DNA of 64,000 nucleotides, from positions 1 through 64,000 of the forward strand of contig CAIYYX010000207.1 in the NCBI GenBank assembly GCA_903930535.1, in the 5' to 3' direction. Of this stretch, positions 50,706-56,004 are shown piece by piece. Position 1 is the stretch's first letter. Each line of letters begins with the position of its first letter. This DNA comes from an uncultured Sterolibacterium sp. GTDB taxonomy: Bacteria > Pseudomonadota > Gammaproteobacteria > Burkholderiales > Rhodocyclaceae. The notes beneath the pieces are model-generated. The model searched no databases. It saw only the letters and a list, made by a program, of their open reading frames with translations, and was not told where the DNA came from. The translations under genes and the position numbers were made by a program.

Positions 50706-50940
50706 CCGCCGGGCCGCAGCACTTAACTCCTGCAACTGCCGCTGAAATATTTCTTCAGCAAGCCAGCGGGGTTCAATAGTTCAGCATTGACCTGACCGTC
50801 TCCAGCGGGTCGGCTAGAATACGCCATGAGAAAGCGAGCAACTTCTCACCGTTAGTCCGTGCAGACGGACGCATTGCGGTCCGGCGTGCCAATTCCCGGA
50901 TGTCGTCAAACCGCTTGAACATTTGTGGAAGGAAGTGAAT

Positions 50941-52104
50941 ATGAAATGCGCATTGGTGGGTTCCCGTTTCTTCGCCGCTTCTGTGTTCGAGGCGTTGCGC
51001 AAGGAGGAGGGGATAACGTTCACAAGCGTCGTTGCTCCCGCCGCCGATGATAGGCTGGCTGTGGCCGCGCGAGCGGTCGGCGTAGCCGTCCATGTGCTGG
51101 AAAACCCGAAGATTGTGCCGGGGAACGCGATTGCCGAGGGCACCGATCTCATCATTGCCGCGCACACGCACGCAAGGGTGAGCAACGAGGCGCTCGCGCG
51201 GTCGCGCTTGGGCGGCATTGGCTATCACCCATCCCTACTGCCCAGGCATCGTGGCATTGCTGCAGTTGAATGGACGATTCTTGAAGGCGATACGATCGCT
51301 GGCGGCTCGGTATATCACTTGGCCGACGGTTGGGACGCGGGCGCCATCGCCGCTCAGGATTGGTGCTTTGTCTTGAAGGGCGAGACGGCGCGCGAGCTGT
51401 GGGAGCGCGCCCTGGCGCCATTGGGCCTTGCCCTCTTGAGCAAGGTCGTCCAAGCCGCCAGGTTGCAAGGATCCCTCCCCGCCTACCCGCAAGATCCGCG
51501 CTTCGCCACGAAGGCGCCCATGTTACGCAGGTCTGTCGTGCTGACCGAAGCGGTCTCTGCGACGACGACTTCGCTCGTCGTCACGATCATGGGCGCTGAC
51601 CGGCCTGGCATCGTCAGCTTGCTGGCCGATAGGGCACAGCGTTTAGGAGCAAACTGGGCGGCCAGTCGCATGACAAAACTTGCCGGCGAATTTGCCGGCA
51701 TGGTGCATTTCGAGGTGCCGCACGAGAATGCCGACGCCCTGGCGACGGCGCTGCGCGGCCTGGAGTCCAACGGTTTGCAAGTGATCATCGCGAGAAGCGA
51801 CGGCGCCAATCCGCCCACATCGGTTCGCGTGGTCGAACTCGAGTTGGTCGGAGAGGATAGGCTCGGTATCGTCAGCAGCCTGACGAAGATGCTGGCGGAG
51901 CGCAGCATCAGCATCGAGAACATTCATACCGAAATCATTCGCGGCGGTGAAGCCGGCAAGCAGATCTTCAAGATCGAAGCGCGCCTGCTCGTGCCGGCCT
52001 CCTTGTCTGTAGATGGGTTGCGCCAGGAACTTGGTGCCTTGGCCAGCGAGATGATGCTCGACATTTCCTTGGGCGATGCGCAGACCCCGGGTCATCCGGG
52101 TTGA
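50941..52104 (+). CDS. Formyltransferase domain fused to two ACT domains
   Basis: The 387-residue protein starts MKCALVGSRFFAASVFEALR after AAGGAAG. Residues 1-175 are a formyltransferase N-terminal fold with HPSLLPRHRG (96-105) and GWDAGAI. The catalytic His96 and Asp132 are present, but the Asn two residues before His in methionyl-tRNA, ArnA and purine formyltransferases is Gly94. Residues about 208-285 (SLVVTIMGADRPGIVSLLAD) and 296-375 (LELVGEDRLGIVSSLTKMLA) are two ACT domains like those of GcvR. PurU combines ACT and formyltransferase modules in the opposite order. A ligand-gated folate or formyl enzyme, possibly no longer a formyltransferase, is plausible; the substrate is unknown. Confidence 0.88.
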   Translation: MKCALVGSRFFAASVFEALRKEEGITFTSVVAPAADDRLAVAARAVGVAVHVLENPKIVPGNAIAEGTDLIIAAHTHARVSNEALARSRLGGIGYHPSLLPRHRGIAAVEWTILEGDTIAGGSVYHLADGWDAGAIAAQDWCFVLKGETARELWERALAPLGLALLSKVVQAARLQGSLPAYPQDPRFATKAPMLRRSVVLTEAVSATTTSLVVTIMGADRPGIVSLLADRAQRLGANWAASRMTKLAGEFAGMVHFEVPHENADALATALRGLESNGLQVIIARSDGANPPTSVRVVELELVGEDRLGIVSSLTKMLAERSISIENIHTEIIRGGEAGKQIFKIEARLLVPASLSVDGLRQELGALASEMMLDISLGDAQTPGHPG

Positions 52105-52140: not shown

Positions 52141-53097
52141 TTACTTCAGCATCCCCGATTTCTTTGCGAGTTGTTCGGTCGTTCGGTATTCCTCCCGCAT
52201 CTCGTTTTGCAGCAACTCGGGTGAGGCATACTCCTGCACCAGGCCGCGCGGAAGCAGCCGGGCGGCGACGTCGGGATCTCTGACCACCTTTTCGATTGCG
52301 GGCGCCAGCGCGGTCGCCACGTCAGTCGAGACGCCAGCCGGTGCGAAGAAGCCCATCCACATGCCGTACAGGTTCTTGCTGTAGCCCTGCTCTACAAGTG
52401 TCGGCACGTCGGGAAACTCGGAAAATTGGCTTGAGATCGCGATCGCTTTTAGCGCGCCGCTTTTTATGAGGCCGCTGACGGCGCCCAAGGCCAGCGTGAT
52501 TCCCTCGGTGTGGCCGCCAAGAACGTCGGTCACTGCCGGGGAAGCGCCGTTGTAGGGCACCATGGCCAGGCCTGCTCCGGTGATTGCGTTGAGAGTCGCG
52601 ATGTTCAAGTCGCCGGTACTGCCCGTCCCGGCCACGCCAACGCGTATCTGGTTCGGATTTTTCTTGCCAAATGCCACCATCTCGGCAAAGTTCTTGTAAG
52701 GCAGATCATTGCGCAAAGCGAGAACATTGGGAGCACGGGTGGACAGTCCCAGCGGAACGAAGTCGTGCAAGGGATCGTAGCGTGCCGTTGCAGGGTAGAA
52801 GATGCGCCTCAGGATCAGCGTCGAGTTGGTGGTAAATAGTATCGTGTAGCCATCTTTGGCGGCATTCGCGACAAATTCGGTTCCCAATGCACCCCCGGCA
52901 CCCGGCCGGTTGATCACCAAAACGGCGACCTTCAGCAGCTTGGACAATTCTGCCGCCATCGTGCGCCCCGCGAGATCCGCGGCATCGCCTGGAGCATAAG
53001 GAACGACGACATTGATCGGCCGCGAGGGATAGCCTTGTGCCTGGGCTGTTGCAGCGACGAGCAGGGTGGCTATGCACAGTAGAACACTCTTCATCAT
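52141..53097 (-). CDS. Bug/TctC-type periplasmic solute-binding protein
   Basis: The 318-residue protein begins MMKSVLLCIATLLVAATAQA, a signal peptide, then YPSRPINVVVPYAPGDAADL, the family NRPGAGGALGTEFVANA, AGTGSTGDLNIATLNAITG and MVPYNGASPAVTDVLGG. It probably binds an aromatic or other carboxylate. GGAG precedes ATG 53095-53097. It is divergent from the UbiD-family decarboxylase, whose substrate may be the same compound (inference). Confidence 0.92.
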   Translation of the reverse strand: MMKSVLLCIATLLVAATAQAQGYPSRPINVVVPYAPGDAADLAGRTMAAELSKLLKVAVLVINRPGAGGALGTEFVANAAKDGYTILFTTNSTLILRRIFYPATARYDPLHDFVPLGLSTRAPNVLALRNDLPYKNFAEMVAFGKKNPNQIRVGVAGTGSTGDLNIATLNAITGAGLAMVPYNGASPAVTDVLGGHTEGITLALGAVSGLIKSGALKAIAISSQFSEFPDVPTLVEQGYSKNLYGMWMGFFAPAGVSTDVATALAPAIEKVVRDPDVAARLLPRGLVQEYASPELLQNEMREEYRTTEQLAKKSGMLK

Positions 53098-53133
53098 GAT
53101 CTCCGTCACTGGCAGTGAGTGAGCCTCATTATG

Positions 53134-53156
53134 TTGTATCGACGAATTAGATACAA
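53134..53156. promoter_or_regulatory. Perfect inverted repeat, candidate operator
   Basis: TTGTATC (53134-53140) and GATACAA (53150-53156) are perfect inverted arms with a 9-base AT-rich spacer, in the 156-base gap between the divergent Bug-type and UbiD genes. Half-sites of this kind are typical of GntR/FCD-type and related repressors. No regulator gene is adjacent in the window. Confidence 0.6.
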
Positions 53157-53253
53157 TAGAATCGAAATCAAAAAATCAGATCTGCTGCGGCCATGTGTTG
53201 AACTCTTGGCCCTTTCCCCTAAATGAATTGTCCCCGTGCACAGGAGCGCAACC

Positions 53254-54720
53254 ATGACCTCATCCTCTCGTTCAATCCAGCAGCCCAAGGATCTTCGGAC
53301 GTGGATTGCCGAGTTGGAGGCTGCCGGCGAGTTGATCCGGATCGACAAGCCCGTCGATCCCCTCACGCAGATGGGCTCGCTTCTCTATCAGTCGCGCGAA
53401 AAGGCGTTGTTCTTTGAGAATTTGCCGCATGGCTGGCGATCCCTCGGCCAGGCCCCTGCGAACGTGCGCCATGCTGCGATTGCCTTCGGCGCCACGGAAG
53501 AGACGGTGATCCCGCTGGTGGCCGGAAAGCTGGGCAAACTCATCCCGCCGGTAATGGTGGCATCCGGCCCGGTCAAGGACGTAAAGCTCGGCAAGGGCGA
53601 ATTCGATCTCACACAGCTTCCCGTTCACGTCGCCGGACAACTCGACGGCGGGCCGGTGATCGGTTCCGGCCTCGTGGTGACCAAGGATCCCGATACCGGC
53701 GAGAGAAACGTCAGCTTCCACCGGTTGCAGATCAAGGGCCCCAACAAATCGGGCATTCTGCTTTACCCGCGACACTCCTGGAAGAATTATCTGAAATACC
53801 AGGCGCGGAACGAGCCTATGCCGGTAGCGATTTTCATCGGCCACCATCCGATCTACTACGTGGCCGCAGCCACCACTGCGGCTTACGGGGTCGATGAGTT
53901 CGCAATCGCCGGTGGTCTTCTCGGCGAAGCGGTGCGCCTGGTCAAATGCGAAACGGTCGATCTGGAGGTGCCGGCCGATGCCGAGATCGTGCTTGAAGGC
54001 CATATCCCGCCGCATTATCGCGAGGAGGAAGGCCCGTTCTCCGAATTCCAGGATTATTACGTCACCGGCACCGGGAAAAATCCCATCGTAGAGTACCAGC
54101 ACATGACGCGACGTCACGACGCGATCTTTAAAAACCTGCAGAACGGATCGGAAATGGAAGGTTGTGTTTTCCACAAGATCCCGATGAGCGCAACGATTTA
54201 TCGCCGCCTCAAGGATGTGGGCGGTGGAGCGAACCTGCACAATGTGATGATACTTCCCGGGGTTTTCGCAGTAGTCGTGCAGATGACGCAACGCTTCTAC
54301 GGCGAAGCGAAGAACCTTTTGCTCGCCGCGCTCACCTCCGAGTACCATCATCCGAAGATCGCCATTGCGGTCGATGCCGATGTCGATATTTTCAACCACT
54401 CGGAGTTGATGTGGGCACTGGCGACGCGGGTGAATCCGGAGAAAGATGTGGTCGTCATTCCCGGGACCCATAACCACGGAATGGATGCCAGCCTGCCAGA
54501 ACTGGGGGCGGCGGGTACGCCCCTCTGGCAGCGGTTCGGGTCCAAGATGCTGATCGATGCGACCATCCCGCCGCCCGCCGACGCCAAGGCGCGCGATATG
54601 TTTGAGCGTATTCGTCCGCACCACCCGGAACTCAGGCTGGAGGATTTCGCTGCCGAGGCTTCTTTGCCCCTGGTTCATGGCCTTCCCCAGCGCTTCTTCG
54701 GATCGAAGCTGCTGCGCTAA
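53254..54720 (+). CDS. UbiD-family prFMN-dependent (de)carboxylase
   Basis: The 488-residue protein starts MTSSSRSIQQPKDLRTWIAE after AGGAG. It follows the UbiD fold: SFHRLQIKGPNKSGILLYPR at the prFMN/metal site, VDEFAIAGGLLGEAVRLV, EEEGPFSEFQDYYVTG with the conserved Glu residues, and HNVMILPGVFAVVVQMTQ. UbiD enzymes reversibly decarboxylate aromatic or alpha,beta-unsaturated acids and need prenylated FMN from a UbiX partner, which is not in this window. With a carboxylate-binding protein and a second decarboxylase next door, aromatic acid turnover is likelier than ubiquinone synthesis (inference). Confidence 0.93.
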   Translation: MTSSSRSIQQPKDLRTWIAELEAAGELIRIDKPVDPLTQMGSLLYQSREKALFFENLPHGWRSLGQAPANVRHAAIAFGATEETVIPLVAGKLGKLIPPVMVASGPVKDVKLGKGEFDLTQLPVHVAGQLDGGPVIGSGLVVTKDPDTGERNVSFHRLQIKGPNKSGILLYPRHSWKNYLKYQARNEPMPVAIFIGHHPIYYVAAATTAAYGVDEFAIAGGLLGEAVRLVKCETVDLEVPADAEIVLEGHIPPHYREEEGPFSEFQDYYVTGTGKNPIVEYQHMTRRHDAIFKNLQNGSEMEGCVFHKIPMSATIYRRLKDVGGGANLHNVMILPGVFAVVVQMTQRFYGEAKNLLLAALTSEYHHPKIAIAVDADVDIFNHSELMWALATRVNPEKDVVVIPGTHNHGMDASLPELGAAGTPLWQRFGSKMLIDATIPPPADAKARDMFERIRPHHPELRLEDFAAEASLPLVHGLPQRFFGSKLLR

Positions 54721-55023
54721 TGGATTGACTATGCGGCAAAGCGCTTGCGGCTGCGACTGGTTCAAGCTCCTGCAATGAAAGACCCTGCTGTCGCATGCTG
54801 ATCAAACCGGCCCGGGCTTCAGCCGGAAAAAATGGCAGATCACCCCAAAGCGATTTTCTTCGGACGTCGGGCTGAAGCCCGACCTACACAGTTCGTCATT
54901 GCGCGGCCCGCAGGGACGTGGCAAGCGCGATGACGGACTTATTCAGACACTCCCTAGGATGAAAACCAAGGCAGCAAAACTGTTCTTACCATGCACCAAC
55001 GCCAACCAGAGGACTCAAAGAAG
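54721..55023. other. Intergenic region with repeats
   Basis: No gene is seen. It holds the GTAGGTCGG-type repeat copy C (54866-54887), a related GGCCCGGGCTTCAGCCGG segment near 54810-54828, and a GTCATTGCGCGGCCCGCAGG ... GCGATGACG palindrome at about 54895-54935. Confidence 0.6.
54866..54887. repeat. Dispersed palindromic repeat (copy C)
   Basis: GTCGGGCT-GA-AGCCCGACCTAC shares its right arm with copies A and D. It lies about 145 bases after the UbiD stop and could act as a terminator. Confidence 0.75.
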
Positions 55024-56004
55024 ATGAAGACGATCGCTCTCGAAGAGCATTTCATTACTCCGATGTACCAGGAAAAGGTCACAGCCAACGACTATCGCAA
55101 CGCCTATGTCGAGAGTCGGGGGCGCCAGATCGGCCACGACATTTACGAGCAATACGTCGACATCGACGCCAAGCGCCTGGCCTACATGGACGCAGCCGGC
55201 GTCGACGTGCAGGTTCTGTCGCTCGGGTCGCCAGGCGCGCAGGGCTTCGCCGCCCCCATCGCGATCCCTATGGCGCGCGACGCCAATGACCGCATGCACG
55301 CGGCGGTGCAGAAGCACCCGACCCGCTTCACCGCATTCGCCGCGCTACCGACGGCGAGCACTGCGGCCGCGGTGAGTGAATTCGATCGCGCCGTCACGCA
55401 GCTCGGCTTCAAGGGCGCGATGATTCACAGTCATACCCAGGGCGAGTTTCTCGACGATAAAAAGTATTGGCCCATCTTCGAGCGCGCGGCCGCGCACGAC
55501 CTGCCTATTTACCTGCACCCGGCGCTACCGCATCCGGCGCTGCTCAACAGCTATTTCGCAGGCTACGAGGAACTTTCCCGCGCCGCCTGGGGCTTCATGC
55601 TCGATGCGAGTTGCCATTTCCTGCGCCTGGTGTTCTCGGGCTTGTTCGACGAGTATCCGAAGCTGAAGATCATCCTCGGTCATCTTGGCGAGGGCCTGCC
55701 ATTTGCCATGCACAGGCTGCACGACCACACTTACATGGCTGCCCAGAGGCGAGGCTTGAAGAAGAGTCCGCTCGAATATTTCCGCGACAACCTGGTCGTG
55801 ACCACGAGCGGCAACTGGTATCCGCCGGCGTTTGACTGCACGCTGGCGGCGATTGGCGAGGATAACATCCTGTTCGCGGTGGACTGGCCGTTCGAGCCGA
55901 ACAAGGTGGCTGTCGAATTCCTGGGCAAGCTCAACATCAGTGAAACGGTGCGGGCAAAAATCGCTCACGGCAACGCCGAGCGTTTGTTAAAAATGGCGCC
56001 GTAA
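55024..56004 (+). CDS. Amidohydrolase_2 decarboxylase (gamma-resorcylate decarboxylase type)
   Basis: The 326-residue TIM-barrel protein begins MKTIALEEHFITPMYQEKV, with the Glu-x-His metal motif of this subfamily. It continues with PIYLHPALPHPALLN (metal His), LGHLGEGLPFAMHRLHDHTY, TTSGNWYPPAFDCTLAAIG and LFAVDWPFE (catalytic/metal Asp). That ending is characteristic of 2,6-dihydroxybenzoate, 2,3-dihydroxybenzoate and salicylate decarboxylases rather than of ACMSD. It should remove CO2 from a hydroxylated aromatic acid without an organic cofactor. An in-frame ATG at 54991 is possible. It follows the UbiD gene but is separated by about 300 bases with repeats, so it may have its own promoter. 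Confidence 0.9.
   Translation: MKTIALEEHFITPMYQEKVTANDYRNAYVESRGRQIGHDIYEQYVDIDAKRLAYMDAAGVDVQVLSLGSPGAQGFAAPIAIPMARDANDRMHAAVQKHPTRFTAFAALPTASTAAAVSEFDRAVTQLGFKGAMIHSHTQGEFLDDKKYWPIFERAAAHDLPIYLHPALPHPALLNSYFAGYEELSRAAWGFMLDASCHFLRLVFSGLFDEYPKLKIILGHLGEGLPFAMHRLHDHTYMAAQRRGLKKSPLEYFRDNLVVTTSGNWYPPAFDCTLAAIGEDNILFAVDWPFEPNKVAVEFLGKLNISETVRAKIAHGNAERLLKMAP

Follow-up and report, generated by a model that had tools for sequence, protein, structure and literature searches.

A patchily distributed bacterial family without the catalytic asparagine places two GcvR-like ACT domains behind a formyl-folate enzyme domain

The gene at 50941 to 52104 of the window, by which the whole analysed stretch of 64,000 nucleotides is meant, raises the question of what may be accomplished by a protein that joins a formyl-folate enzyme domain to a pair of ACT domains in the reverse of the order found in PurU (10-formyl-THF deformylase), and that carries a glycine in place of the asparagine of the classical Asn/His/Asp catalytic set. 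The original prediction regarded it as an amino-acid-regulated enzyme or sensor with changed chemistry, and pointed to its location next to genes for aromatic decarboxylases rather than folate genes. The underlying observation was confirmed by the analysis described here, and those parts of the interpretation that concern the domain order, the ACT pair and a plausible regulation by amino acids stood, whereas the special chemistry and the argument from the neighbourhood did not.

Domain layout and occurrence of the fusion protein

The open reading frame at this position runs on the plus strand from an ATG start to a TGA stop, and the following features were assigned to it.

50941..52104, + strand: coding sequence of the 387-aa formyltransferase-ACT-ACT protein, stop included (ORF reading, Pfam, start kept in relatives)
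50927..50935, + strand: ribosome-binding-site-like GGAAGGAAG, 5 nt ahead of the ATG (sequence reading)
50941..51525, + strand: formyl-folate domain, residues 1-195 (Formyl_trans_N, predicted FDH-hydrolase-like fold; PF00551 with E 4.3e-19, VIA-align against 4qpd)
51163..51171, + strand: His75-Thr76-His77, the His-x-His signature of the family
51220..51255, + strand: active-site motif GYHPSLLPRHRG, residues 94-105, with Gly94 (Asn position), His96 and Ser98
51334..51336, + strand: Asp132, equivalent to FDH Asp142 (FDH alignment)
51526..51564, + strand: low-confidence linker, residues 196-208 (pLDDT below 50 at 195-205)
51565..51801, + strand: ACT domain 1, residues 209-287 (ACT_6, DRPGIV motif; PF13740, Foldseek matches 2nyi and 1u8s)
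51823..52077, + strand: ACT domain 2, residues 295-379 (DRLGIV motif; PF13291 with 28.5 bits at a cut-off of 27, secondary structure of the model)

An ATG is found at the same start position in 71 of the 77 relatives that align from residue 1 to at least residue 376; the long N-terminal extensions of L048, L088 and L108 were rejected as chance open frames, as judged from their sequence. Formyl_trans_N is matched by residues 65-158 (69.4 bits against a gathering score of 26.1), ACT_6 by residues 212-279 (E 3.2e-18) and ACT_4, narrowly above its cut-off, by residues 298-353 (E 2.4e-6). The tandem ACT-ACT pair with its GcvR-like fold is recognized by profile as well as by fold (Pfam, Foldseek), and the predicted reversal of the PurU order, with the formyl-folate domain at residues 1-195 and two ACT domains of the GcvR type at 209-379, was borne out by Pfam, Foldseek and the structural model. 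All NCBIfam models stay below their cut-offs for the window protein. Pfam detects no C-terminal domain of the Fmt type, the place of which is taken by the ACT domains, and neither the carrier nor the aldehyde dehydrogenase domain of full FDH in the frame ending at residue 387.

The ACT pair finds its Foldseek matches in 2nyi, 1u8s (putative glycine cleavage repressor) and SerB2, the entry of which (5jlp) names serine at the ACT domain in its title. Stand-alone ACT-ACT relatives are up to 49% identical, and the motif D-R-x-G-I-V is present in both ACT domains. The fusion protein shares the tandem arrangement with the GcvR-like ACT-ACT proteins, but differs from them in that its ACT pair is joined to an enzyme domain, and it reaches 28.1 bits with the GcvR model NF008612 at a cut-off of 267. 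The expected ligand would be an amino acid, with glycine and serine as the likeliest candidates. PurU is under amino acid control, and the same control may apply to the fusion protein; an amino-acid-regulated folate enzyme, in line with the original prediction, is plausible.

A scan of genome contigs yielded relatives of 57-88% identity, the best 80 of 200 related stretches being kept. Nearly all of these are full length, while L076, L087 and L089 are cut by a contig end or match from later residues only. Among the 78 aligned members, the window protein included, Formyl_trans_N is present in 78 (E up to 0.001), ACT_6 likewise in 78 and ACT_4 in 77. By record title, the relatives belong mostly to Burkholderiales and other betaproteobacteria, including Polaromonas, Massilia, Herminiimonas, Noviherbaspirillum, Paraburkholderia, Caballeronia, Thiomonas and Azoarcus, and one MAG is labelled alphaproteobacterial. 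An order-wide sample of 250 genomes contains the full-length protein in two (E up to 1e-30), one of them being the window genome, together with five further genomes encoding the formyl part only and 17 encoding the ACT part only; in a sample of one family, 6 of 299 genomes encode the full-length protein (E up to 1e-80). Because of this rarity, the gene is regarded as an accessory one, and the fusion proteins form a conserved bacterial family of patchy distribution. No description of the combined formyltransferase-ACT-ACT arrangement was found in the titles and abstract openings of the open-licence literature. As judged from the comparison of the window with L043, the gene is under purifying selection, with dN/dS ratios of ~0.09 in the formyl part and 0.14 in the ACT part, the respective identities being 91% and 84%.

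Relation to FDH and residues of the active site

The N-terminal hydrolase domain of 10-formyl-THF dehydrogenase (FDH, ALDH1L1) is the closest solved structure by both fold and sequence. It provides the top PDB sequence match of the formyl part (1.5e-20), and a profile of the family matches FDH/ALDH1L1 at 2.3e-41 as compared to 7.3e-26 for the best Fmt. A first structural model had a mean pLDDT of 74.4, with the catalytic loop partly below 50, and the fold search was repeated on a second model (AlphaFold2) with a mean pLDDT of 86.0. In VIA-align, the predicted fold superimposes on the hydrolase domain of zebrafish FDH (4qpd) with Z 28.1 and an rmsd of 1.6 A over 189 residues, and the match stops at residue 201 of the 308-residue chain. 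The FDH hydrolase domain reaches Z values of 26.9-28.1 (188-190 residues), compared to at most 25.9 for Fmt, 24.4 for ArnA and 20.8 for PurN, the lead over Fmt being small at 1 to 2 units. In a tree of 56 rows, the row adjoining the family, with a support of 94/90 that stays under the starred level, is the bacterial L036, which matches FDH best among PDB entries (7.8e-64), and Fmt, PurN and PurU of the same genome fall outside the family. Within the family, the phage-type rows form one group (100/98), among which the plasmid rows L039 and L040 are placed, the rows of the stand-alone bacterial proteins termed f256 form another (97/95), and the fusion rows form one clade (97/94), the f256 and fusion groups being nearest to each other.

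Residues were compared across 180 members of the family, consisting of 81 fusion proteins, 80 proteins from viral contigs, 8 f256 proteins and 11 others. His96, Ser98 and Asp132 are each present in 180/180, and Gly occupies the Asn site in 178/180, stand-alone and phage proteins included. His75 (173/180) and His77 (177/180) form a near-invariant His-x-His. The stretch G94-Y95-H96-P97-S98-L-L-P-R-H-R-G is unchanged in 81/81 fusion proteins, as are E110, W111, Y125-H126-L127, W131-D132 and W141-C142; E110 and H126 also occur in 8/8 f256 proteins, and the viral relatives contain R110 in 46/80 and W or R126 in 73/80 cases. The residue numbering of the original prediction proved correct, with His96 and Asp132 kept and Gly94 aligning to the Asn of PurN, Fmt and PurU from the same genome, and residues 83-132 of the window protein contain no Asn at all.

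Eight other proteins with the formyltransferase fold, of which the window genome encodes six, were included in the comparison, and His is absent from positions 75 and 77 in all eight. PurN, Fmt and PurU of the window genome were identified by NCBIfam models with their cut-offs passed, while L007 and L042 are named merely formyltransferase-fold proteins, because NCBIfam yields no match to the former at E up to 1e-20 and the latter stays below every cut-off. The Asn site is occupied by Asn in four of these proteins (PurN, Fmt, PurU and a PRK06988 formyltransferase), by Val in two (one being HypX), by Gln in the FDH-like L036 and by Gly in L042, so proteins of this fold do not always carry the Asn. 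L042 is encoded on a Ruegeria plasmid (5770-6684), reads GFHPSALP at this site, is placed outside the family in the tree and adjoins sugar-transferase genes. As judged from these alignments, the loss of the Asn is a trait of the family that is accompanied by a new His-x-His. Since Gly is present in 178/180 members, it most likely arose before the fusion, and the single fusion clade together with the Gly shared by the stand-alone members suggests that the fusion most likely occurred once, in a stand-alone enzyme already bearing the Gly.

According to passages of PMC4388273, Ile104 occupies the Asn site in FDH, and His106, Ser108 and Asp142 are proposed to act as a kind of triad; the variants I104A and I104N are cited there as retaining ~50% and <10% of the hydrolase activity, respectively, and FMT, ArnA and GART are described as crucially dependent on the Asn. 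The His/Ser/Asp set of FDH is matched without Asn by H96, S98 and D132 together with Gly94, and the motif YHPSLLPRHRG is common to the window protein and the FDH structures (4qpd, 1s3i, 2bw0). The original prediction had taken the missing Asn as a sign of changed chemistry in the window protein; because FDH is active without Asn, and with Gly present in nearly all members, this argument is weakened as a special feature of the protein. The window protein differs from FDH in that Gly takes the place of Ile at the Asn site, in the presence of His75-x-His77 and of the ACT domains, and in the lack of a carrier or dehydrogenase domain. Moreover, the residues that contact folate in FDH according to the same source, Phe89 and Tyr200, align with Arg79 and Lys191 in the window protein, and Phe is found at position 79 in 63/80 viral relatives. 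The protein agrees with the FDH domain in its fold, its nearest sequence and its triad but not in the two folate contacts, and it does not qualify as a complete FDH enzyme.

Among the other named systems, PurU likewise combines ACT and formyl-folate domains, but in contrast to Gly94/His96/Asp132 of the fusion protein, PurU of the window genome, a hydrolase, keeps the Asn (NIH). The PurU model NF004684 yields 19.6 bits at a cut-off of 223, and membership in PurU fails on score, domain order and Asn. HypX possesses an FDH-like formyl-folate domain at its N-terminus, differs by its fusion to an enoyl-CoA hydratase-like domain, and is proposed to formylate CoA (passages of PMC6802093); the Asn is also absent from HypX of the window genome (best PDB match 8.6e-173), with Val instead.

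Gene neighbourhoods and stand-alone relatives

A TctC receptor, a UbiD-family decarboxylase and an Amidohydro_2 protein are encoded at 52141-56004 of the window, a set that resembles a separate locus for aromatic acid decarboxylation. The TctC gene lies on the opposite strand, between the fusion gene and the UbiD and Amidohydro_2 genes, and the UbiD protein reaches 277 bits, above the TIGR00148 cut-off. The adjacency of an aromatic decarboxylase is therefore as predicted, but it does not carry a functional argument, as the neighbours are not conserved. The UbiD gene has no cluster partner among the genes of the other 80 loci, and clusters of at least six loci do not include the amidohydrolase; the window genes in shared clusters are those for TctC (8 loci) and a more distant acyl-CoA dehydrogenase-like ORF (11 loci), the window being counted in each case. 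All such neighbour counts are lower bounds, as numerous loci are short or end close to the gene. Genes of these two kinds are common, and deriving a function from the window neighbours was rejected. In two relatives, L096 (6177-7760, by scan) and L093 (6182-7771, by ORF cluster), the fusion gene is preceded on its own strand by purH, which encodes a user of 10-formyl-THF.

The only recurrent neighbour found is the gene of a class V aminotransferase of the serine-pyruvate type, which directly adjoins the fusion gene in 24/81 loci (L086:6776-7936, L069:9351-10478 and 22 more), always with the same orientation, upstream in 13 and downstream in 11, and the same 24 loci were recovered by tblastn. 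The aminotransferases of the two arrangements are 71% identical (one protein each), and the best PDB match of one protein is a putative serine-pyruvate aminotransferase (1.7e-139). Such an enzyme is encoded in 11 of 21 host genomes searched (E up to 1e-40), and the window genome contains only a 24%-identical protein. PurU is encoded by the window genome as well as by 21/21 other host genomes tested, which were drawn from the 80 relative loci and whose records are not labelled MAG; a replacement of PurU by the fusion protein was therefore rejected.

The stand-alone GYH formyltransferases belong to the same family and share its Gly and His-x-His, but contain no ACT domains, and most of the viral ones adjoin an ABC-GNAT gene. 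The resulting two-gene pair of an ABC-ATPase/GNAT protein of ~360-400 aa (phrog_11143) and a GYH formyltransferase (phrog_9240) is found in 73 of the 80 viral contigs kept (80 of 335 confirmed) and in 51 of the 54 clusters that form at 90% identity, the genes overlapping by 4 bases in 42/73 and by 10 or 13 bases in 20/73. It is also present at all 5 formyl-only matches of the 250-genome order sample, on an IncP plasmid, in a Pseudomonas phage and in a Gordonia phage; in Gordonia phage Sisko, it comes after a gene annotated as ParB-like. The pair is located on L186-L235 and L237-L259 (viral contigs), L151-L155, L038:7039-8603, L164:4688-6417, L165:597-2464 and, by ORF list reading only, L268. 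None of 80 fusion loci carries it. Its sole PADLOC match is a weak one to mad3 (6.4e-8), no title on it was found in the open-licence literature (titles, abstract openings), and it may possibly represent a nucleic-acid or polymer modification system. The f256 proteins (L260-L267), of 195-199 aa, occur in 10 genomes of one family from the same phylum as the window but a different class, possibly Alphaproteobacteria, and are ~63% identical to the window domain (five compared). The 8 regions read contain no named functional neighbour, an ORF of ~200 aa recurs nearby, and a GcvR partner is not apparent, with 0/10 genomes matching the GcvR model (E up to 0.001).

Candidate functions of the fusion protein

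Because of its likeness to FDH in sequence, fold and Asn-less triad, the fusion protein is best, if tentatively, read as an amino-acid-gated 10-formyl-THF hydrolase, i.e., as an independently built analogue of PurU. The absence of an Fmt-type C-terminal domain, the likeness of the ACT pair to 1u8s, 2nyi and SerB2, and the serine-pyruvate-type aminotransferase next to the fusion gene in 24/81 loci also speak for this reading. Going beyond the fold and the residue matches, 10-formyl-THF would be bound in the FDH-like cleft, its formyl group would be polarised by His96 and Asp132, and water (or a thiol, as in FDH) would accept it to yield formate and THF, with His75 and His77, at a guess, standing in for the missing Asn. 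The ACT pair would bind its amino acid and set the rate, and the one-carbon supply would thereby be matched to the glycine/serine status. Such an enzyme would have originated, independently of PurU, when a stand-alone formyl-folate enzyme gained a GcvR-like ACT pair at its C-terminus. A hydrolase is less easily reconciled with PurU in all hosts tested, next to which a second hydrolase may be redundant, with the replaced folate contacts, and with an aminotransferase that is present in just 11/21 hosts and represented in the window genome by a distant protein only. The main rival, which has to be taken seriously without being expected, is a formyltransferase that would pass the formyl group of 10-formyl-THF to one specific acceptor of small size, which would be an amine or a thiol and perhaps an amino-acid derivative, under control of an amino acid bound to the ACT domains. 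It is favoured by the co-occurrence with PurU (21/21), by the partners of the phage proteins and by additional residues that do not vary: the viral relatives adjoin and mostly overlap an ABC-GNAT gene (73/80 viral loci), as in a modification pathway, which suits formyl transfer better than hydrolysis, and E110, H126, W131, W141 and C142 are invariant (81/81), as would be those of a specific acceptor pocket, with residues 110 and 126 varying by clade. The FDH domain itself is described in passages of PMC6802093 as handing the formyl group to a phosphopantetheine carrier. A transferase is, however, at odds with the nearest solved protein, a hydrolase domain devoid of the Asn on which FMT, ArnA and GART are said to depend crucially (passages of PMC4388273), and no conserved neighbour gene names an acceptor.

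Two further explanations appear very improbable. The loss of the Asn from the classical set would fit a catalytically dead formyl-folate domain that reads the folate or amino acid status and serves as a sensor only, but His, Ser and Asp are invariant in 180/180 members, the formyl part is more conserved than the ACT part between the window and L043, and FDH is active without the Asn (passages of PMC4388273). It is equally hard to believe that the protein is simply a PurN, Fmt or PurU paralogue whose ACT tail is mere decoration: the weak matches to the three NCBIfam models lie far under the cut-offs (65 of 201.5 bits for fmt, 35.2 of 150.1 for PurN, and the PurU score given above; ArnA, 43.5 of 777), and bona fide Fmt, PurN and PurU are encoded in the same genome and placed outside the family in the tree. 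A more far-reaching proposal, which we consider unlikely on balance, is that the protein belongs to a so far undescribed formyl-folate enzyme class, with the His-x-His in the role of the catalytic Asn. Its phage branch, with the overlapping ABC-ATPase/GNAT gene, would plausibly modify DNA or another polymer, and in its bacterial branch an amino acid bound to the GcvR-like ACT pair would gate the transfer of the formyl group to an acceptor new to folate metabolism.

Should the reading as an amino-acid-gated 10-formyl-THF hydrolase be true, amino acid sensing would have been coupled to 10-formyl-THF at least twice in bacteria, the domains being arranged in opposite orders and the ACT domains being of different types. 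The control of one-carbon metabolism in these bacteria would then be more layered than annotation suggests, with the tested hosts carrying PurU as well as the fusion protein. The family also represents a natural test of the need for the Asn in formyl-folate chemistry.
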